Assembly (NCBI RefSeq): GCF_900302475.1
Contig: NZ_OMOQ01000001.1
Span: 248,001 to 312,000 of the forward strand
Origin: Defluviimonas aquaemixtae
Lineage (GTDB): Bacteria > Pseudomonadota > Alphaproteobacteria > Rhodobacterales > Rhodobacteraceae
DNA length: 64,000 bases
Direction of reading: 5' to 3'
In this document: positions 2,951 to 50,267 of the stretch, in pieces
Position numbering within the stretch: the stretch's first letter is position 1
How the letters are laid out: each line of letters begins with the position of its first letter
Position numbers and translations under genes: made by a program
The notes under the pieces: generated by a model
The model's input: only the letters and a program-made list of their open reading frames with translations
Databases searched by the model: none
What the model was told of the DNA's origin: nothing

Positions 2951-3553
2951 ATGGCTGGAAAGAAGATCAATCCTTGGCTGAAACTGGGGCTGGAACTGGG
3001 CCCCATCATCGCCTTCTTCGTCGCCTTCACGCGGTTGAAGGACGCCACGGTGACAATCAATGGCGCCGAGTATGGCGGCTTCATCCTCGCCACGGCGGGC
3101 TTCGTTCCGCTACTTGCGGGCACGACGTTGATCCTCTGGCGGCTGACCGGGCGGCTTTCGCCCATGCAGATCGCGACGCTCGTTCTGGTGATCGTCTTCG
3201 GCGGACTTTCAGTCTGGCTGAACGACGAGCGTTTCTTCAAGATGAAGCCCACGATCATTTACCTTCTCTTCGCCGGGATCCTCGGCGCAGGGCTTTTGCA
3301 AGGACGCTCCTACCTTGCACTCGCGATGGACGAGGTCATGCCATTGAAGCATGAAGGCTGGATGATCCTGACCCGGAGACTGGCGGCGTTCTTTGCGGGT
3401 TTGGCGGTTTTAAACGAAGTGATCTGGCGCACGATGTCGGACCAGGCCTGGGTTAACTTCAAGACCTTTGGTCTGACCGCCGCGATCTTCCTTTTCTTCA
3501 TGTCTCAGAACCGGCTCTTTCAGCAATACGAGGTTGACGAGGGCGATCGCTGA
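2951..3553 (+). CDS. Inner-membrane septation protein (YciB/IspZ family)
   Basis: A 200-residue polytopic protein starting MAGKKINPWLKLGLELGP, the typical YciB/IspZ opening, where LELGP is followed by a transmembrane helix. It has about five helices, the internal sequence FKMKPTIIYLLFAGILG and a conserved WRTMSDQAWVNFKTFG segment near the C-terminus. Family members (IspZ in Shigella, YciB in E. coli) affect cell division and envelope integrity; the biochemical role is not settled. The start is preceded by GAGGCGG and lies five bases after the transporter stop, indicating translational coupling. Length matches the family. Confidence 0.93.
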   Translation: MAGKKINPWLKLGLELGPIIAFFVAFTRLKDATVTINGAEYGGFILATAGFVPLLAGTTLILWRLTGRLSPMQIATLVLVIVFGGLSVWLNDERFFKMKPTIIYLLFAGILGAGLLQGRSYLALAMDEVMPLKHEGWMILTRRLAAFFAGLAVLNEVIWRTMSDQAWVNFKTFGLTAAIFLFFMSQNRLFQQYEVDEGDR

Positions 3554-42312: not shown

Positions 42313-43437
42313 TCAGTTCCCGCGAGCGCTGGCTTGCGCGTCCTTCACAATCACCTTTTCGCCGTCACGGACGAGATCCTGGCCGGACACGATGATGCGC
42401 GCATCCTCCGGCACGCCAGTCAGAACTAGCCCCTCCGGTGTGTCGTCGATGAGTTCTACCGACGCGAAGTTCGCGATGTCATCATGGCCCACAACGCGCA
42501 GCCCCAGTTCGCCCTCTACCGAGAGCGTGATGACCGAGCGGGGCACCGTCACGGCGCGTTCCGGACTCGTGAAAAGGCTGACCTCTGCGGTCATGCCAGA
42601 CGGTATGGTGCGGTCGGGGTTGGGCAGCGCGATCTCAACAGGGTAGGTGCGTGTGGTGGGCGAGGCATCGCGAGCGACGTGGCGGACGTGACCGTCGATG
42701 TGCGTTCCATGGACGAGTCGTACCGATGCCGGGTCGCCCTTCGCGACGAAGCCGATGTCGATCTCGCTCACCTCGGCGCGCACGACGATCGGGTCGAGCG
42801 CGAGAAGAGTCGCGATCGGCGTGCCGACCTGAACCCACTCGCCAAGCTCGACATCGACTGTATCGATGACGCCGGCGAAGGGCGCGCGCAGATTCAGCCG
42901 GTCTGCCGCCGCTTCGGCCTGGCGAAGCGCCGCCTCGGCAGCAGCCTTGTCCGCACGGACGCGGATGAGTTGCAGTTCGGCGGTGTTGCCACTCTGGAAG
43001 AGCTTCTCGGCAACTTCGAGTTCCTGCTGGCGCTGGGCTAGCGTGGCCTGCGCGGTCATCACCGCGGCGGTGATATCGTCGCCCTCGACCGACGTCACGA
43101 TCTGATCCGCCTCAACATAGTCGCCCTGAGATATGTCAAGCGCCGCGATCACTCCTCCCGCCCGAGCGGCGAGTACGGCGTGCTTGTCCGCGCCTGTAAC
43201 GCCGGAGACTCGAATCTCGCGCGCATGCTCGATGAACTTCGGGGTGATCGCCGCCACCGTGCGCAGCGATTCATCAGTGCCGGCAGTATCGCCGGCCTGC
43301 TCGGTTTCAGGGGCAGGCTGGGCTGCACGCGCCTCTTCGCTGCCGACCGAGGTAAACTTACCGGTTCCGACCCAAAGGCCGGCTGCGATAAGCACGATGA
43401 TGGCCGCAATCTTGTGGCCTTTTATGCGCGAAGCCAT
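42313..43437 (-). CDS. RND efflux periplasmic adaptor (membrane fusion protein)
   Basis: A 374-residue adaptor with an N-terminal hydrophobic anchor (IAAIIVLIAAGLWVGTGKF), a lipoyl half VLAARAGGVIAALDISQGDYV, an alanine/glutamate-rich coiled-coil hairpin at about 135-190 (AAVMTAQATLAQRQQELEVAEKLF is part), the second lipoyl half LRAPFAGVIDTVDVELGEWVQ and beta-barrel. It carries the Gly/Ala-type linker found in AcrA/MexA-like proteins. It precedes the RND permease on the same operon with a three-base gap. Confidence 0.91.
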   Translation of the reverse strand: MASRIKGHKIAAIIVLIAAGLWVGTGKFTSVGSEEARAAQPAPETEQAGDTAGTDESLRTVAAITPKFIEHAREIRVSGVTGADKHAVLAARAGGVIAALDISQGDYVEADQIVTSVEGDDITAAVMTAQATLAQRQQELEVAEKLFQSGNTAELQLIRVRADKAAAEAALRQAEAAADRLNLRAPFAGVIDTVDVELGEWVQVGTPIATLLALDPIVVRAEVSEIDIGFVAKGDPASVRLVHGTHIDGHVRHVARDASPTTRTYPVEIALPNPDRTIPSGMTAEVSLFTSPERAVTVPRSVITLSVEGELGLRVVGHDDIANFASVELIDDTPEGLVLTGVPEDARIIVSGQDLVRDGEKVIVKDAQASARGN

Positions 43438-43550: not shown

Positions 43551-44468
43551 TCAATATGGCCCCGCGAATTTTCGCCGAAATGCGCGGTCTTCGTCCTCGG
43601 ATAGTGCGCGCAGGGCATCTATGAAGGCTGCACTCGCAGGGCTGGGTGGCCGGTCGCGATGGGTCAAAACCAGCAGGCTGCGCTCTGCGGCCGGGTCGCT
43701 CGGTGCGACGAATGAAATCTCGCGCGAGCGGTCTGCAAGCACCCGGCGGGGCAGCACCGTAGCGCCCAGGCCGCTTCGAACGAAGGACAAGAGCGTCATT
43801 GTATTGCGCGCAGTGAGGGTGCTTCCGCGGATCATTGTGCGTGCCGTCGGGTGATCGATCAGGTCGCAGAGCGGGTTCACGATGAGTGGCTCGTCGGCGA
43901 GCCGCGACCAACTCAATGCTCCGGTAAGGATGGGGCTGTCCGCGCGGCAGACAATTCCAAGCCGGTCCGCAAACAGCGTCTCCGCAACTAGCTCTGTCCT
44001 TAGGGGCTGGTCTGGGGCGCCGGCCGAGGCGATTCCGATATCCGCTTCGTCGAAGCGTAGCCTGCGCAGGACGGCCGCGCTGTCCACGTCCGCGATTTCC
44101 AGCCGTACATCAGGCCGCGAACCACGGAACCCCGCGATTGCTGACGGCAGGACCGTCATCGCGGCCGAGGGCACGGCTGCGATCCGCACGGTGCCTGCCG
44201 TAGAGCGCGCATGCCGGGTAATAGCCTCGGTGCTGCGGTCGATCGCGTCGAGCGCGCGTTCGCATTCTTCGAGAACGCGCAGGCCGAGCGGTGTAAGCCG
44301 GTTCTTGCGCTCGCCCGCGAAGAGCGGCGCGCCGACTTCCGTTTCGAATTGCGAAAGCGTCATCGAGATCGCTGACGGGGTACGCCCAAGTGTCGCCGCT
44401 GCTGCCGCAAGGGTTCCCTCTCTCGCAACGGCACGAAAACTGCGCATCATGTCGGGTTTCAACAGCAT
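43551..44468 (-). CDS. LysR-family transcriptional regulator
   Basis: A 305-residue regulator: winged helix-turn-helix at residues 6-66 (FRAVAREGTLAAAAATLGRT, then PSAISMTLSQFETEVGAPLF), and a substrate-binding-like domain with GTVRIAAVPSAAM, EADIGIA and GLGATVLP. Divergent from the aldehyde-dehydrogenase operon with an 89-base intergenic region holding two palindromes, the usual layout for a LysR protein regulating its neighbour and itself. The inducer is unknown but is probably a substrate of the flanking pathway. Confidence 0.9.
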   Translation of the reverse strand: MLLKPDMMRSFRAVAREGTLAAAAATLGRTPSAISMTLSQFETEVGAPLFAGERKNRLTPLGLRVLEECERALDAIDRSTEAITRHARSTAGTVRIAAVPSAAMTVLPSAIAGFRGSRPDVRLEIADVDSAAVLRRLRFDEADIGIASAGAPDQPLRTELVAETLFADRLGIVCRADSPILTGALSWSRLADEPLIVNPLCDLIDHPTARTMIRGSTLTARNTMTLLSFVRSGLGATVLPRRVLADRSREISFVAPSDPAAERSLLVLTHRDRPPSPASAAFIDALRALSEDEDRAFRRKFAGPY

Positions 44469-44469
44469 G

Positions 44470-44484
44470 TTCAGATAGTCTGAA
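44470..44484. promoter_or_regulatory. Candidate LysR operator 1
   Basis: TTCAGATAGTCTGAA is a perfect 6-bp palindrome with a 3-base centre and contains the LysR T-N11-A pattern (TCAGATAGTCTGA). It lies one base before the LysR start codon and 73 bases before the aldehyde dehydrogenase, suggesting autoregulation. Confidence 0.5.
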
Positions 44485-44498
44485 AGAAAGTAAAGAAA

Positions 44499-44514
44499 TT
44501 CAAGATTGATTGAA
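44499..44514. promoter_or_regulatory. Candidate LysR operator 2
   Basis: TTCAAGATTGATTGAA is a perfect 5-bp palindrome with a 6-base centre, 14 bases from operator 1 and 43 bases before the aldehyde-dehydrogenase start. Both sites share the TTCA/TGAA arms, which supports a common binding protein. Confidence 0.4.
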
Positions 44515-44557
44515 GTCGCGGCGCTGACTTATCAACCCTTGGCACAGGAGGATCAGG

Positions 44558-46009
44558 ATGAGCGAAAAGACGGGGCTGTTCATTGCGGGTCGTTGGCAGG
44601 ACGGCGCGAGCGAAATCGAAAACCGGAACCCATCGGATGTCTCCGACCTGATCGGACGCTACGCACAGGCGAATACGGCGCAGTTAGAGGAGGCGCTTGT
44701 CGCGGCGAGGACGGCGCAGCCGCTTTGGTGGTCCGCCGGAATCCAAAAACGCCACGACGTACTCATGGCGATCGGAACCGAGCTCATGTCCCGCGCGGCC
44801 GAAATCGGCGCAATGGTGTCGCGTGAGGAGGGCAAGCCGCTGGCCGAGGGCAAGGGCGAGGTCTACCGCGCCGGACAGTTCTTCACCTACTTCGCGGCCG
44901 AGGTACTCCGCAATCAGGGCGACCTTGCCGAAAGCGTGCGGCCCGGGGTCGAGATCGACGTGCGCCGCGACCCGGTGGGTGTCGTCGCCATCGTCAGTCC
45001 GTGGAACTTCCCGATCGCGACCCCGGCCTGGAAGATCGCGCCGGCGCTGGCCTTCGCTAACGCGGTCGTCTGGAAGCCGGCGAATCTGACTCCGGGCTCG
45101 GCGGTGATGCTGACCGAAATCATCGCGCGTCAGGACATCCCCTCGGGTCTCTTCAACCTCGTCATGGGGTCGGGCCGCGAGGTAGGGCAGCGGCTCGTGG
45201 AAAGCCCAGGCGTGGATGCGATCAGCTTCACGGGCTCGGTGCCCGTCGGACGAGGTATCGCGGCGGCGGCGGTCGCGAACATGACCAAGGTGCAGATGGA
45301 GATGGGGTCCAAGAACCCGATGCTGATCTTGGAGGACTGCGATCTCGATTTGGCGGTCGCGCATGCCGCAATTGCGGCCTTCGGCGGCACAGGGCAGAAA
45401 TGCACCGCGGCCTCGCGGCTCATCGTGCACGAGAAGGTGCACGACGCATTCGTCGAACGGCTCGTGAAGGCTGCCGAGGCGCTGAAGGTTGGCCACGCGC
45501 TGGACGAGGGCACCCAGATCGGTCCAGTGGTCAGCGCGGGCCAGCTCGCACAGAATCTCGACTATATCGGGATCGGCAAGTCCGAAGACGCGGAGCTTCT
45601 AACCGGCGGCTGCCGGCTCGATCGCAAGACCGAGGGGCACTACATGGCGCCCGCTGTCTTCGCAGGCACAAGAAACGACATGCGCGTCAATCGAGAGGAG
45701 ATGTTCGCTCCGATCACCTGCGTGATGAATGCGGGCAGCTACGACGAAGCCCTTGCCATCGCGAACGACAGCGAGTTCGGCCTGACGGCCGGGATCATGA
45801 CCCGTTCTCTCGCCCGCGCGAGCCACTTCCGCGCCAACATGCGCGCAGGCTGCGTGATGGTAAATCTGCCGACGGCGGGGACCGACTATCATGTGCCGTT
45901 CGGCGGTCGGGGTGCATCCTCGTTCGGACCGCGCGAACAGGGACGCTATGCGGCGGAGTTCTACACGACGGTGAAAACCGCCTATGTCGCCGCCGGGACG
46001 CCGGAATGA
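44558..46009 (+). CDS. NAD(P)-dependent aldehyde dehydrogenase (semialdehyde type)
   Basis: A 483-residue ALDH-superfamily enzyme. The cofactor/catalytic residues are present: SPWNFP (N residue), Glu248 in VQMEMGSKNP and nucleophile Cys282 in GQKCTAASR, 34 residues apart as in the family, plus EEMFAPITCV and PFGGRGASSFGPREQ. The MEMGSKNPMLIL loop resembles the alpha-ketoglutarate or succinate semialdehyde dehydrogenases. It is the first gene of a four-gene operon and overlaps the next by ATGA. Its aldehyde substrate is unknown. Confidence 0.9.
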   Translation: MSEKTGLFIAGRWQDGASEIENRNPSDVSDLIGRYAQANTAQLEEALVAARTAQPLWWSAGIQKRHDVLMAIGTELMSRAAEIGAMVSREEGKPLAEGKGEVYRAGQFFTYFAAEVLRNQGDLAESVRPGVEIDVRRDPVGVVAIVSPWNFPIATPAWKIAPALAFANAVVWKPANLTPGSAVMLTEIIARQDIPSGLFNLVMGSGREVGQRLVESPGVDAISFTGSVPVGRGIAAAAVANMTKVQMEMGSKNPMLILEDCDLDLAVAHAAIAAFGGTGQKCTAASRLIVHEKVHDAFVERLVKAAEALKVGHALDEGTQIGPVVSAGQLAQNLDYIGIGKSEDAELLTGGCRLDRKTEGHYMAPAVFAGTRNDMRVNREEMFAPITCVMNAGSYDEALAIANDSEFGLTAGIMTRSLARASHFRANMRAGCVMVNLPTAGTDYHVPFGGRGASSFGPREQGRYAAEFYTTVKTAYVAAGTPE

Positions 46010-46992
46010 ATCCGCTGATTGACGGCCTGCAATACGCCAACTGGTCGGAGAAGATCTTCCGGCAGATGCGCGAAGGCTGCGTCGACGGGATCCACGTCAC
46101 TATCACCTACCACGAGAGCTTTCGCGAGACGGTCCTGCAGATCGAGCGCTGGAACCGCTGGTTCGAGCGTTTCCCCGACCTGATCTTTCAGGGCTTCACA
46201 GCCGAGGATGTCGCGAAAGCGCGCGACACCGGCCGAACCGCGATCTTCTTCGGCTCTCAGAACCCGTCCTGCATCGAGGACGATATTGGGCTGGTCGAAG
46301 TGCTGCACCGGCTGGGCCTCAGGTTCATGCAGCTCACCTACAACAACCAGTCGCTTCTCGCGACGGGCTGCTACGAGGCCGAGGACATGGGCCTGACACG
46401 GATGGGCCGCGAGGTTGTGGCCGAAATGAACCGGGTCGGGCTCGTCGTCGACATGAGTCATTCCGGCGAACGCTCGACGCTGGATGCGATCGAGCATTCG
46501 ACGCGCCCCATCGCGATCACCCATGCCAACCCGCATTCCTGGCACCCCGCACTTCGCAACAAGTCCGAGACGGTGCTGCGCGCCTTGGCCGAAAGCGGCG
46601 GGATGCTCGGCTTCTCGGTCTATCCGCATCACCTGAAGGGCGGCAGCGGTTGCCCGCTGGAGAGTTTCTGCGCGATGATCGCGCGGACCGCCGAACTGAT
46701 GGGTGTGGAGCGGATCGGCATCGGCACGGATCTGTGTCAGGATCAGCCCGACAGCGTGGTCGAGTGGATGCGCGTCGGGCGGTGGACCAAGAAGGTGGAC
46801 TACGGCGAGGGCAGCGCCGCAGCGCCGGGCTTTCCGCCGATGCCGGACTGGTTCCGCGACAACCGCGATTTCGGACGGATCGCAGAGGGCCTGCGCAAGG
46901 TGGGCATGTCCGAGGCGGAGGTCGCCGCCGTGATGGGCGACAACTGGCTGCGGTTCATGGCCGAGAGCTTCGGCCCGATGGCGAACGGTTGA
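46006..46992 (+). CDS. M19 (renal dipeptidase)-like protein with altered metal site
   Basis: A 328-residue amidohydrolase-fold protein resembling membrane dipeptidases in LGLRFMQLTYNNQSLLATGC, VDMSHSGERSTLDAIEHS, THANPHSWHPALRNKSE, GFSVYPHHLKGG and GIGTDLCQD. Conserved ligand positions His152, His173 and Asp242 remain. The N-terminal zinc motif HxD is replaced by LxY (residues 8-10, DGLQYANW), and the bridging Glu of the family seems replaced by Gln85 (FFGSQNPS). If the alignment is right, the binuclear zinc centre is partly lost and it may not be a peptidase. Coupled to the ALDH by a four-base overlap; no signal peptide. Confidence 0.78.
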   Translation: MNPLIDGLQYANWSEKIFRQMREGCVDGIHVTITYHESFRETVLQIERWNRWFERFPDLIFQGFTAEDVAKARDTGRTAIFFGSQNPSCIEDDIGLVEVLHRLGLRFMQLTYNNQSLLATGCYEAEDMGLTRMGREVVAEMNRVGLVVDMSHSGERSTLDAIEHSTRPIAITHANPHSWHPALRNKSETVLRALAESGGMLGFSVYPHHLKGGSGCPLESFCAMIARTAELMGVERIGIGTDLCQDQPDSVVEWMRVGRWTKKVDYGEGSAAAPGFPPMPDWFRDNRDFGRIAEGLRKVGMSEAEVAAVMGDNWLRFMAESFGPMANG

Positions 46993-46996
46993 CGGC

Positions 46997-48670
46997 ATGA
47001 AGAAAGACGCTCGCACGCATGACGATCTCGCCCCGTTCCGCCGGCCGCCCGAGGTCGTGATGCGGCTTGCCCGGATGGGAAGCGCGCACCCGACGCGGCT
47101 TTCGTTCCTGCGCGTCCTCTTGCGTCGGATGCGCGACGAACGCTGGCGCTTCGACCGGCCGCTTTGGGAGATCGACGCGAAGGGCGTGGGCCGGGCGGTC
47201 TATCGCGCCACGGGGCCTGAGCGGACGTATTCGCTCGTCGCCTTCGCCCACGATCTGCCCGACCACATGCGCTCGGACCGTGTGATCGCCACCGCCTGGG
47301 ATGCGACCTTCACGCTTTTCGACGGCATGCCGACAGTGGTCGATCTTGACCGGCTTCAGGCCAACGTCCCGTTGCAGGAGGCAGGACGAATCAGCGGGTC
47401 GGAGCTGTCGCTCAGCCGGGCGAACCGATCCGTGCGGCTGTTCGAGCACGTGGTCGCCAGTCTGGCCGAGGGACGCCAGCCCGACGCCGAAGAGATTGAC
47501 CGCGTCGGCTATCTGATGCGCACGACGGCGGTCTACGGATCGGGTAAGTTCGGCGCGGCGGATCGGTCTGTGCTGACCGGGCGGCCCGAGATGAAGGGGC
47601 CGTTTCAGGCCGAGATGCTGTCGGTCTGGCTGACCCGGGCATTCACGGTCGATCTGGCGGAACACCTCGCGCGAATGCGGGGAGGCGACAGGGCCGTCGC
47701 CATGGCGCCCGATCTTAGGCGGCGGCTCGGCGTCGGCAATTCGACCGGCCTCGGGATGGCGCCGTTTCTCATCCGGCACCCGGCGCTTTTGAACAACTGG
47801 ATGTTGGCGCGAGAAGAGGCGCTCGCGCGGGTCCGCGCGCAAGTCGGCGCCATGCCTGACGCGGTTGCCGCGCTGGGCGAAGCGCTACGCGCGGCGGAGG
47901 CCAATCACAAGCACTGGCGGTCCGAGCATCCCATCCAGATCGCCAAGCTCGCCGATCTGGGGCGGGACCTTGAGCGGATCGGGGCATATCTCGAAAACTG
48001 GCCGGGCGGCGAGGAGCGGCCGTGGGACGCGCTCTGGCGTTGGGGCGAGGAGGTGCTAAGCCTCGAAGGGCAGGAGGCGCTTCTAGCGATGATGCTCGAG
48101 CCGCATGGGGCACTCGTCGACGACCTCGCCGCCACGATGGACGCCGACGAGGGATCGGAGTTCCGCATCGATGGCACCGTTCCGGTCGCGGCGATCAGGG
48201 ATGCGCTGGCGCGGCACTACGGCTGGGCGCTCGACGTCAACTACGGCGACAGGGAGGCGGTGGCGCGGTTCTGGTATGTGTCCGAGGAGAAACTGGAGCC
48301 GCGCCTCGGCGAGCGGTTCAGCGAACTCGGGGCGGCGCGGGAACTGCCGCTCGGCACCGGCCGGATGGCTGCCGAGATGGACCGGGCGCTTGCCGTCTGG
48401 GAAGGGGAGGGACCGCTGGCCGCTTTCCTTCTCGCTCATCCTGAACACCGCTTCATGGCGCGCCGGCTCCAGATCGCGAGGGGCCACCCCTATGCCGAAA
48501 TCCGCGACAACCTGCTGGCAGCCGACATGCTGCCGATCGATCTTCTGCGCTGCAAGCTCGCGTTTTTTGGCGCGACGCATTTCGATCCGCGATCGGACCG
48601 CTGGGTAAGGATTTCGCTGTTCCAGAACGCGCCCTACCCATACGAGATGGCGGAAGGCTCGGTGGCATGA
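46997..48670 (+). CDS. Uncharacterised 557-residue protein
   Basis: I do not recognise this family. It is a soluble, mostly helical protein, rich in Arg, Leu and acidic residues, without signal peptide or transmembrane helices. It starts four bases after the M19-like gene and overlaps the next gene by ATGA, so it belongs to the same pathway operon. Visible conserved-looking pieces are RLARMGSAHPTRLSFLRVLL near residue 20, the Gly-rich YGSGKFGAADR, NSTGLGMAPFLIRHPALLNNW in the middle, and FRIDGTVPVAAIRDALARHYGW. The HPALLNNWMLAREEAL helix may bind a cofactor or partner; that is speculation. The C-terminal part contains PYAEIRDNLLAADMLPIDLL. Confidence 0.85.
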   Translation: MKKDARTHDDLAPFRRPPEVVMRLARMGSAHPTRLSFLRVLLRRMRDERWRFDRPLWEIDAKGVGRAVYRATGPERTYSLVAFAHDLPDHMRSDRVIATAWDATFTLFDGMPTVVDLDRLQANVPLQEAGRISGSELSLSRANRSVRLFEHVVASLAEGRQPDAEEIDRVGYLMRTTAVYGSGKFGAADRSVLTGRPEMKGPFQAEMLSVWLTRAFTVDLAEHLARMRGGDRAVAMAPDLRRRLGVGNSTGLGMAPFLIRHPALLNNWMLAREEALARVRAQVGAMPDAVAALGEALRAAEANHKHWRSEHPIQIAKLADLGRDLERIGAYLENWPGGEERPWDALWRWGEEVLSLEGQEALLAMMLEPHGALVDDLAATMDADEGSEFRIDGTVPVAAIRDALARHYGWALDVNYGDREAVARFWYVSEEKLEPRLGERFSELGAARELPLGTGRMAAEMDRALAVWEGEGPLAAFLLAHPEHRFMARRLQIARGHPYAEIRDNLLAADMLPIDLLRCKLAFFGATHFDPRSDRWVRISLFQNAPYPYEMAEGSVA

Positions 48671-49356
48671 GCGCTCTGCCGAACGATCCCACGCGAGCGG
48701 GCGCACCGGTTGCCGGTGCCGCGGTTCTGTCGCTGCCGGAGGTCGAGGCCTTGTGCCTCAAGGCCGCTCGGGGCGCGGGTATGAGCTGGGGCCTTGCAGA
48801 GGAGGCGGGTCATGCAGCCGCCTGGCTCGCCGCGCAGGGTCTGCCGGGACCGGAATTGATGCTGCGTCTTCTCGAGGCATCAAGGGGCCGGGAGTGGTCG
48901 GATCGTAGCCCCGCTCTCGGGGCGTTGCGGTGGCGCGCGCAGAATGGGTTGGCGTTACTCCCGGTTGCGACCGGCGCGGCATTCGCCGATCTCGCGGGAC
49001 CGCTTCCGCTCAGGATCGAGAGGCTCGCTTATCCGGGGCTTGTTCTACCGTCGATTGCTATTGCCGCCGGAGTGCGGGGGCACGCAATCCGACTCGAGTG
49101 GTCCAGCGGGTCGGTCGCAGTCACTGCCGAGGCGCTCGATGATGCAGAAGCAGCGCAAGGATTGTGCGATACCGCTGAAGCGAACGTTTCGCTGCAAGCC
49201 GCTGAGACGCTGGTGGACCCCGCTGAGCGGCGCCCCGGGCATTCGATTTCCCGCGCAGTGTGGCAGGCGCTCGACCACTTCGCGCTTCTCACCACGGTTC
49301 CGGCGACCGAGACATCGCGCGCCGATGCGGGTGCGGGCAGCAGCGACAACGATTGA
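48667..49356 (+). CDS. DUF3726-like protein
   Basis: A 229-residue soluble protein resembling the DUF3726 family: LSLPEVEALCLKAARGAGMSWGLAEEAGHAAAWLAAQGLPGPEL is the family-like N-terminal half, followed by a Cys/Gly-poor middle and an Ala-rich end. Function unknown. It is the last gene of the LysR-controlled operon, overlapping the 557-residue gene by four bases. The rfbA gene converges with it (eight-base gap). My family name is from sequence memory and could not be verified by search. Confidence 0.75.
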   Translation: MSALPNDPTRAGAPVAGAAVLSLPEVEALCLKAARGAGMSWGLAEEAGHAAAWLAAQGLPGPELMLRLLEASRGREWSDRSPALGALRWRAQNGLALLPVATGAAFADLAGPLPLRIERLAYPGLVLPSIAIAAGVRGHAIRLEWSSGSVAVTAEALDDAEAAQGLCDTAEANVSLQAAETLVDPAERRPGHSISRAVWQALDHFALLTTVPATETSRADAGAGSSDND

Positions 49357-49364
49357 CCGCGCGT

Positions 49365-50267
49365 TCAGTCCGCCGAGGCCAGCGACGGATCGGACGCGAT
49401 CCGAGCCAGGTACCGGCCGTACTGGGTTTTCAGATACGGCCCCGCGAGCGCGTTGAGATGAGCCGCGTCGATCCAGCCATTGAGGAACGCGATCTCCTCG
49501 GGGCAGCCGACCTTGAGATTCTGCCGCTCTTCGATCGTGCGGATGAAGTCGGCGGCGTCGAGAAGGCTCTCATGCGTGCCGGTGTCGAGCCAGGCGAAGC
49601 CTCGGCCAAGCGTTTCGACGCTGAGCCGCTCGTCGCGGTGATAGAGGTTGAGAAGATCGGTGATCTCAAGCTCGCCACGCGCGGAAGGCTTGATGGTCCT
49701 CGCCCGCGCGGGCGCGTCGCCATCGAGGAAATAGATTCCGGTAACCGCGTAGGTGCTTTTCGGCTTTTCCGGCTTTTCCACGATGGACAGAACCTTGCCG
49801 TCGCGGTCGAATTCCACCACGCCGTAGCGTTCAGGGTCCGACACGCGGTAGCCGAAGACCGTGCCGCCCTCGCTCCGCGCGTCCGCGGCGCGAAGCTTCG
49901 CGGACAGCCCTTCGCCGAAGAAGACGTTGTCGCCGAGGACCATCGCAGACGGCGCCCCGGCGAGGAACTCCTCGGCCAGGATATAGGCCTGGGCGAGACC
50001 GTCGGGCGAAGGCTGCACGACATAGTCGAAGCGCATGCCCCAGGCCGACCCGTCGCCCAGAAGCGCCTTGAACTGGGGCAGATCGCGCGGCGTGGAGATC
50101 ACCACGACCTCGCGGATGCGGGCGAGCATCAATGCCGACAGGGGATAGTAGATCATCGGCTTGTCGTAGAGCGGCAGCATCTGCTTCGACACCGCATGGG
50201 TGATCGGATAGAGCCGGGTGCCCGATCCGCCGGCCAGGATGATGCCCTTGCGTCCGGTGTCGCTCAT
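49365..50267 (-). CDS. rfbA: Glucose-1-phosphate thymidylyltransferase
   Basis: Makes dTDP-glucose from glucose-1-phosphate and dTTP, first step of dTDP-L-rhamnose synthesis. The 300-residue enzyme has the nucleotide-binding GIILAGGSGTRLYPITHAVSKQ at residues 8-27, LPLYDKPMIYYPLSALMLA, FVYG-type LGDNVFFGEG, and ENPS-type IVEKPEKPKS. Its start overlaps the rfbD stop by ATGA. It is the last gene of the operon. Confidence 0.96.
   Translation of the reverse strand: MSDTGRKGIILAGGSGTRLYPITHAVSKQMLPLYDKPMIYYPLSALMLARIREVVVISTPRDLPQFKALLGDGSAWGMRFDYVVQPSPDGLAQAYILAEEFLAGAPSAMVLGDNVFFGEGLSAKLRAADARSEGGTVFGYRVSDPERYGVVEFDRDGKVLSIVEKPEKPKSTYAVTGIYFLDGDAPARARTIKPSARGELEITDLLNLYHRDERLSVETLGRGFAWLDTGTHESLLDAADFIRTIEERQNLKVGCPEEIAFLNGWIDAAHLNALAGPYLKTQYGRYLARIASDPSLASAD

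Follow-up and report, generated by a model that had tools for sequence, protein, structure and literature searches.

Marine phytoplankton use homarine (N-methylpyridinium-2-carboxylate) as an osmolyte, and its uptake by bacteria is rapid (PMC9723723, PMC12817926); R. pomeroyi depletes it within hours (PMC12817926). In the same species the AraC-type gene tmaR adjoins mgdABCD, and Mgd (N-methylglutamate dehydrogenase) takes part in homarine catabolism according to a 2026 report, as cited in PMC13390433. The subject of the present analysis is an operon in Defluviimonas aquaemixtae (Rhodobacteraceae), which lies within the 64,000 nucleotides hereafter called the window (NCBI RefSeq assembly GCF_900302475.1, contig NZ_OMOQ01000001.1, positions 248,001 to 312,000) and encodes an aldehyde dehydrogenase (ALDH), an M19-fold protein, a protein of no assigned family called here P557, and a DUF3726 protein, the last two without an assigned function, behind a divergent gene for a LysR-family regulator. 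It is probable, at roughly two chances in three, that this operon is substrate-induced and breaks down a small N-methylated zwitterion by a route through N-methylglutamate, with homarine as the likeliest substrate. The 2026 paper on homarine by Ferrer-Gonzalez et al. (Nat Microbiol 11:1531-1546) is said to describe an operon homABCDER with N-methylglutamate and glutamate as products, reportedly carried by Rhodobacterales, SAR11 and SAR116. On those reported features the module in the window is alike in its marine alphaproteobacterial carriers and its conserved operon, and at a guess the five genes and one regulator of that name might be ALDH, M19, P557, DUF3726, Ldh_2 and LysR. Mgd is reported to be involved in the published pathway, and here sarcosine-oxidase-type genes, as candidates for Mgd, are linked to the module in some loci. 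A preliminary description of the locus had named it the best candidate in the window for an undescribed system, a claim that is now doubtful, since a bacterial homarine pathway, conserved and possibly made up of these very genes, appeared in print in 2026.

Gene content and recurrence of the operon

The four plus-strand genes are as closely packed as the preliminary description had them: ALDH shares 4 bases with M19, a gap of 4 bases separates M19 from P557, P557 again overlaps DUF3726 by 4, and all five open reading frames, that of LysR included, run intact from an ATG start to a TGA stop. P557 was searched in 101 genomes and is present in 36, the window's own included, and from the 35 other carriers, one of which has two copies, 36 loci were taken (the relatives' loci). 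A second set came from a survey in which each species was represented by one genome, at least 579 of 590 candidate stretches being confirmed and the best 80 kept (the named loci); being the 80 nearest to the query, these lean to near relatives and favour high linkage, and some genomes are shared between the two sets. Any match to DUF3726 occurs in 78 of the 80 named loci, to M19 in 75, to ALDH in 61 and to LysR in 55. When only loci with enough flank are counted and the gene must be in the correct position, M19 accompanies P557 in 73/74 named and 31/34 relatives' loci, DUF3726 in 77/78 and 29/35, ALDH in 58/71 and 20/34, and all three together in 55/69 and 20/34. On these position-checked counts the core consists of M19, P557 and DUF3726, to which ALDH is usually added as a fourth member. 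The recurrence of the gene set, judged from the counts themselves, argues against a chance grouping, and the four families, whose co-occurrence the preliminary description had proposed to examine in other genomes, are linked in most loci. Carriers include many Rhodobacteraceae and SAR116 (loci L120 and L133), with Aminobacter and Paracoccus among the relatives, and the cluster is common to many marine and soil bacteria. At least 8000 P557 homologues were found, and 168 of 72,556 plasmid records hold one (64 Sinorhizobium, 58 Phaeobacter).

Searches of several libraries matched P557 to no enzyme of characterised function, so that in this respect the preliminary description stands. Its Pfam search gave a single match, to Spectrin_4, far under the cut-off (E 0.044), and its AF2 model is confident (pLDDT 89.6, pTM 0.91) and found no significant match among PDB structures. 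The DUF3726 label given earlier is borne out by PF12525 (E 3.8e-18, 65.6 bits against a cut-off of 22.1), a family matched at E up to 1 by all 41 aligned proteins. The predicted fold of the DUF3726 protein is that of a shortened Ldh_2-type reductase. Ldh_2 proteins, which include malate/lactate, delta1-piperideine-2-carboxylate and ureidoglycolate enzymes, are 325-339 amino acids long where linked to the operon, whereas the aligned DUF3726 proteins have 188-242; the motif SHG is present in 15/15 linked Ldh_2 proteins and in 1/41 DUF3726 proteins, and Pfam Ldh_2 (PF02615) was listed for none of the 41. P557 and DUF3726 are fused in one frame in three of the 80 named loci (L071, L073 and L100) and, as judged by length and Pfam domain, in four of the 120 homologues listed; these fusions suggest that the two proteins form a complex.

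The M19 protein belongs to its family by a wide margin (Pfam Peptidase_M19, E 1.5e-71, 241.6 bits against a cut-off of 26), and residues 4-323 resemble PDB entry 2i5g, an amidohydrolase (E 1.1e-58); PDB entry 3id7 and renal dipeptidase are other members of the family. The di-zinc ligands of canonical M19 peptidases, HxD, a bridging Glu and two His, are for the most part replaced across the operon-type set. In an alignment of 108 proteins (the window's, 75 from named and 32 from relatives' loci; 105 distinct), four of the five ligand positions have changed in nearly all, H8 to L in 106, D10 to Y in 105, Glu to Q85 in 108 and the second His to A182 in 101. H173 is the sole ligand position retained and is invariant, as are H152 and D242 (108/108). 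The altered active site that had been noticed in the hydrolase is thus real, and it is family-wide. The ALDH (Pfam Aldedh PF00171, E 4.4e-152, 507.3 bits) keeps the catalytic Cys282 (GQKC motif) and Glu248 (MEMG motif). Its top NCBIfam scores are to alpha-ketoglutaric semialdehyde dehydrogenases, enzymes for a five-carbon semialdehyde, with NF042993 at 470.7 and NF052305 at 469.5 bits, but these fall far short of the respective curated thresholds (770 and 750). New in this analysis are an operon-type M19 protein bereft of most canonical metal-ligand positions, a predicted reductase fold for DUF3726 that nearly always lacks SHG, and a P557 model with no significant match in the PDB.

Partner genes and the sarcosine-oxidase-type link

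A betaine-class transporter, either one of two BCCT types or an OpuAC-class ABC system, is encoded in the covered flanks of 40 of the 80 named loci, the first BCCT type in 26; an Ldh_2 gene is found in 27, and a RidA-type gene (Pfam on one member), typically directly 3' of DUF3726, in 20. The best PDB match of one linked Ldh_2 protein is 1wtj, which is named either ureidoglycolate dehydrogenase or delta1-piperideine-2-carboxylate reductase, and the second of these acts on a ring 2-carboxylate. In one 1.4-Mb genome (G089) a single region carries Ldh_2, OpuAC, a ProW-type permease, a ProV-type ATPase, ALDH, M19, P557 and DUF3726, where Pfam was run on the Ldh_2 protein itself and the names of the three transporter genes were worked out on locus L062 and transferred by clustering. 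In a separate list of 120 P557 homologues, which are 83-98% identical to the copy in that genome, most entries come from environmental sequence sets.

Annotated records were examined for Phaeobacter inhibens DSM 17395 (PGA1_RS18825-RS18850), P. piscinae, Aminobacter, Sulfitobacter and Roseateles, together with two that carry a distant branch of the module; another two records had no annotation at the locus. The fullest is a Roseateles plasmid (its record flagged UNVERIFIED_ORG), with sarcosine-oxidase beta, delta and alpha genes, a GlxA regulator, LysR, ALDH, M19, P557, DUF3726 and Ldh, and with a glycine-betaine ABC transporter, purU and folD as neighbours of the operon. Two Phaeobacter plasmids have sarcosine-oxidase-type genes, a helix-turn-helix gene (with AraC and DJ-1/PfpI domains in the one tested) and then the operon. 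On the same two plasmids (L178, 12482-19617; L185, 15473-22968) there is an adjoining cluster with a Rieske-type dioxygenase, an ALDH, an FAD oxidoreductase, a PDR/VanB-type reductase and a LysR gene.

The genome from which the window comes has three sarcosine-oxidase-type sets, of which that at G000:C1:1712118 most closely resembles the linked ones of Phaeobacter and Roseateles. Its beta subunit is 75-77% identical to the linked sets against 67% for one other set (two of the three sets were compared), and its alpha subunit is 65% identical to that of Phaeobacter, against 56% and 45% for the other sets, and 54% to that of Roseateles, against 53% and 43%. An AraC/GlxA-type neighbour of the set is 48% identical to its Roseateles and 32% to its Phaeobacter counterpart. 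A cluster of the same genome (L173, 1344-16051), its genes named mostly by eye, includes glutamine-synthetase-like, amidotransferase-like and sarcosine-oxidase-type genes, an AraC/GlxA-type regulator and a TRAP-like transporter. An alpha subunit 65-75% identical to that of Phaeobacter lies in the flanks of three of the 80 named loci (L085, L121, L122), where a rough model expects 0.37 for both sets of loci (p 0.007); one further named locus has an alpha subunit at 44% identity, a few loci have weak partial matches, and in the relative G005 the gene lies 11 kb off on the same contig. A wider class of alpha subunits was defined by at least 59% identity to that of the window's genome, a threshold set after viewing the list, in a search that listed matches at E up to 1e-250 and may miss short or split copies. 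So defined, the class is present in 20/36 genomes with P557 and 5/65 without (p 2e-7, uncorrected for kinship), in 14/14 against 2/8 within the genus (p 3.8e-4), and in 13/13 against 2/5 of the genus genomes at least 90% complete (p 0.012). The linked tetrameric enzyme is a candidate Mgd or sarcosine oxidase. The window's genome also has a gmaS-like gene above the cut-off of TIGR03105, presumably the GmaS family, and mgs-like genes recognised from their sequence alone.

The regulator, the distant branch and neighbouring genes

The regulator carries both LysR_substrate (PF03466, 4.8e-35) and HTH_1 (PF00126, 7.5e-14), and its gene is in place, in either orientation, in 50/65 named and 17/32 relatives' loci with enough flank. 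Base 44469, where the preliminary description has the locus begin, directly follows the LysR gene, and coding in the operon starts at base 44558; the interval holds two dyads (Table 1), of a form typical for LysR-type operators, which they fit as candidates. The pattern TTCAR-N5-YTGAA has two matches within the 64 kb where 0.08 are expected, the other exact copy being at 3208-3222. The pattern of operator 2, derived from that very site, has one match against 0.00 expected. Both dyads recur in an alignment of 15 intergenic regions, hand-chosen from near relatives, in which CTGA and three left-arm bases of operator 1 are invariant.

In Variovorax and Sinorhizobium a P557 homologue (31-32% identical) is followed by a protein of 236 or 242 amino acids and then by an M19 protein 34-40% identical to the window's. 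By position the small protein would be the DUF3726 counterpart; it has no DUF3726 match, and for the S. meliloti protein Pfam gave no family at all. The Variovorax one scores 16.3 bits against Ldh_2 (PF02615), below the cut-off of 38.8, which lends distant support to the predicted DUF3726 fold. These sets differ from the window's operon in their gene order, their IclR regulator and their transporters. In S. meliloti the set is followed by a four-gene ABC transporter, a class-III aminotransferase, a semialdehyde dehydrogenase and RidA.

Two further genes flank the locus in the window. An HlyD-type membrane-fusion protein (by Pfam) is encoded downstream of the LysR gene at 42313-43437 (minus strand), apparently with no link to the operon, and a convergent nucleotide-sugar pyrophosphorylase-like reading frame, named by eye, occupies 49365-50267 (minus strand), 8 bases from the DUF3726 stop codon.

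Table 1. Features of the operon, its regulatory region and the distant branch
Feature	Position	Strand or source	Basis or remark
LysR-family regulator, 305 aa (amino acids)	43551..44468	-	divergent from operon; reading frame and Pfam
Candidate operator 1, dyad TTCAG-N5-CTGAA	44470..44484		pattern count and conservation
Candidate operator 2, dyad TTCA-N8-TGAA, written out TTCAAGATTG-N2-TGAA	44499..44514		pattern count and conservation
Aldehyde dehydrogenase (ALDH), 483 aa	44558..46009	+	reading frame, Pfam, catalytic residues
M19-fold protein, 328 aa	46006..46992	+	Pfam; most of canonical metal site gone
P557, 557 aa, no family assigned	46997..48670	+	reading frame; confident AF2 model
DUF3726 protein, 229 aa	48667..49356	+	Pfam; predicted shortened Ldh_2-type reductase fold
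Distant P557, small protein and M19 set	L181 8956-12402 and L179 7986-11482	S. meliloti and Variovorax	IclR gene adjoins

A proposed route and its competitors

In the route envisaged for homarine, a betaine-class transporter would import the substrate, and P557 with DUF3726, joined in many species by a full Ldh_2 reductase, would reduce or hydrate the ring and then open it. If the partly reduced ring were cut between C5 and C6, an N-formyl semialdehyde would arise, which the ALDH would oxidise to the acid. Going from the seven carbons of homarine to the six of N-methylglutamate would require the loss of one ring carbon, and the M19-fold protein, without its classical di-zinc site, may strip the leftover one-carbon or amide (formyl) piece as a candidate deformylase or lyase. 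The product would be N-methylglutamate, from which a sarcosine-oxidase-type Mgd would form glutamate and methylene-tetrahydrofolate, with LysR controlling the operon from the two conserved dyads. What was observed is the gene content, the linkage, the conserved dyads and, within the genus, a shared distribution with sarcosine-oxidase-type genes, together with the predicted folds; the substrate, the product, the sequence of reactions, the part played by the individual enzymes and the binding of LysR are what we infer.

Several observations weigh against this assignment. No transporter, Ldh_2 or Mgd gene is linked to the window's operon: the only BCCT of the genome shares roughly 30% identity with the type found at the operon, its five OpuAC proteins are encoded away from the operon, and its only Ldh_2 gene lies elsewhere, beside ABC-transporter-like genes. 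None of the 36 relatives' loci is flanked by the sarcosine-oxidase-type alpha subunit, its class is not significantly associated with P557 in the rest of the family (6/18 against 3/21, p 0.26), and the linked enzyme may be either Mgd or a sarcosine oxidase. The ALDH is not in place in 13/71 named and 14/34 relatives' loci with enough flank. The core need not be homarine-specific, because the P557 and M19 homologues of Sinorhizobium and Variovorax have different genes around them. Homarine itself is a candidate substrate proposed from sequence, and the module is likewise a candidate for the published homarine operon.

It is doubtful, although the idea deserves real weight, that the operon instead degrades another N-methylated or betaine compound (trigonelline, proline betaine, hydroxyproline betaine or some other algal osmolyte) by similar steps. 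The BCCT and OpuAC families are well known to serve many betaines, the relatives include the Aminobacter and Paracoccus already mentioned, no sequence feature fixes the identity of the ring, and a Rieske-type gene cluster stands a few kb away on the two Phaeobacter plasmids; yet the conserved core has no Rieske-type gene (its recurrent neighbours being annotated in part), the nearest solved relative of the linked reductase includes a ring 2-carboxylate reductase, and the sarcosine-oxidase-type link fits a route via an N-methyl amino acid. Salvage of a peptide or amino-acid derivative by a working M19 dipeptidase would agree with the strong Peptidase_M19 match and with records that annotate the protein as 'membrane dipeptidase', but is very improbable given that the metal-ligand positions are so widely replaced, the window's protein included, and that the neighbouring transporters identified are of the betaine class. 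Detoxification of a reactive aldehyde, which the preliminary description had allowed as one purpose of a dedicated pathway, is highly unlikely as well: the ALDH leads the operon and keeps its catalytic residues, but of the four genes it is the one most often missing (58/71, against 73/74 for M19 and 77/78 for DUF3726), and uptake systems are often in the cluster (40/80 named loci). The earlier claim survives as a LysR-controlled catabolic module with an aldehyde step, and its detoxifying variant is not favoured because the partner genes in relatives are those of betaine-class uptake and, in one record, of one-carbon disposal.

It is conceivable, at somewhat less than even odds, that P557, DUF3726 and the metal-poor M19 protein constitute a new kind of enzyme system for opening N-methylated nitrogen rings, with a fold so far absent from solved structures, and that the distant branch in rhizobia and Variovorax uses a similar core on another compound. 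No solved structure similar to the central protein was found, its partner has the look of a truncated reductase, and the hydrolase has mostly lost its metal site. If the homarine assignment is true, P557 would mark the bacteria that consume homarine.

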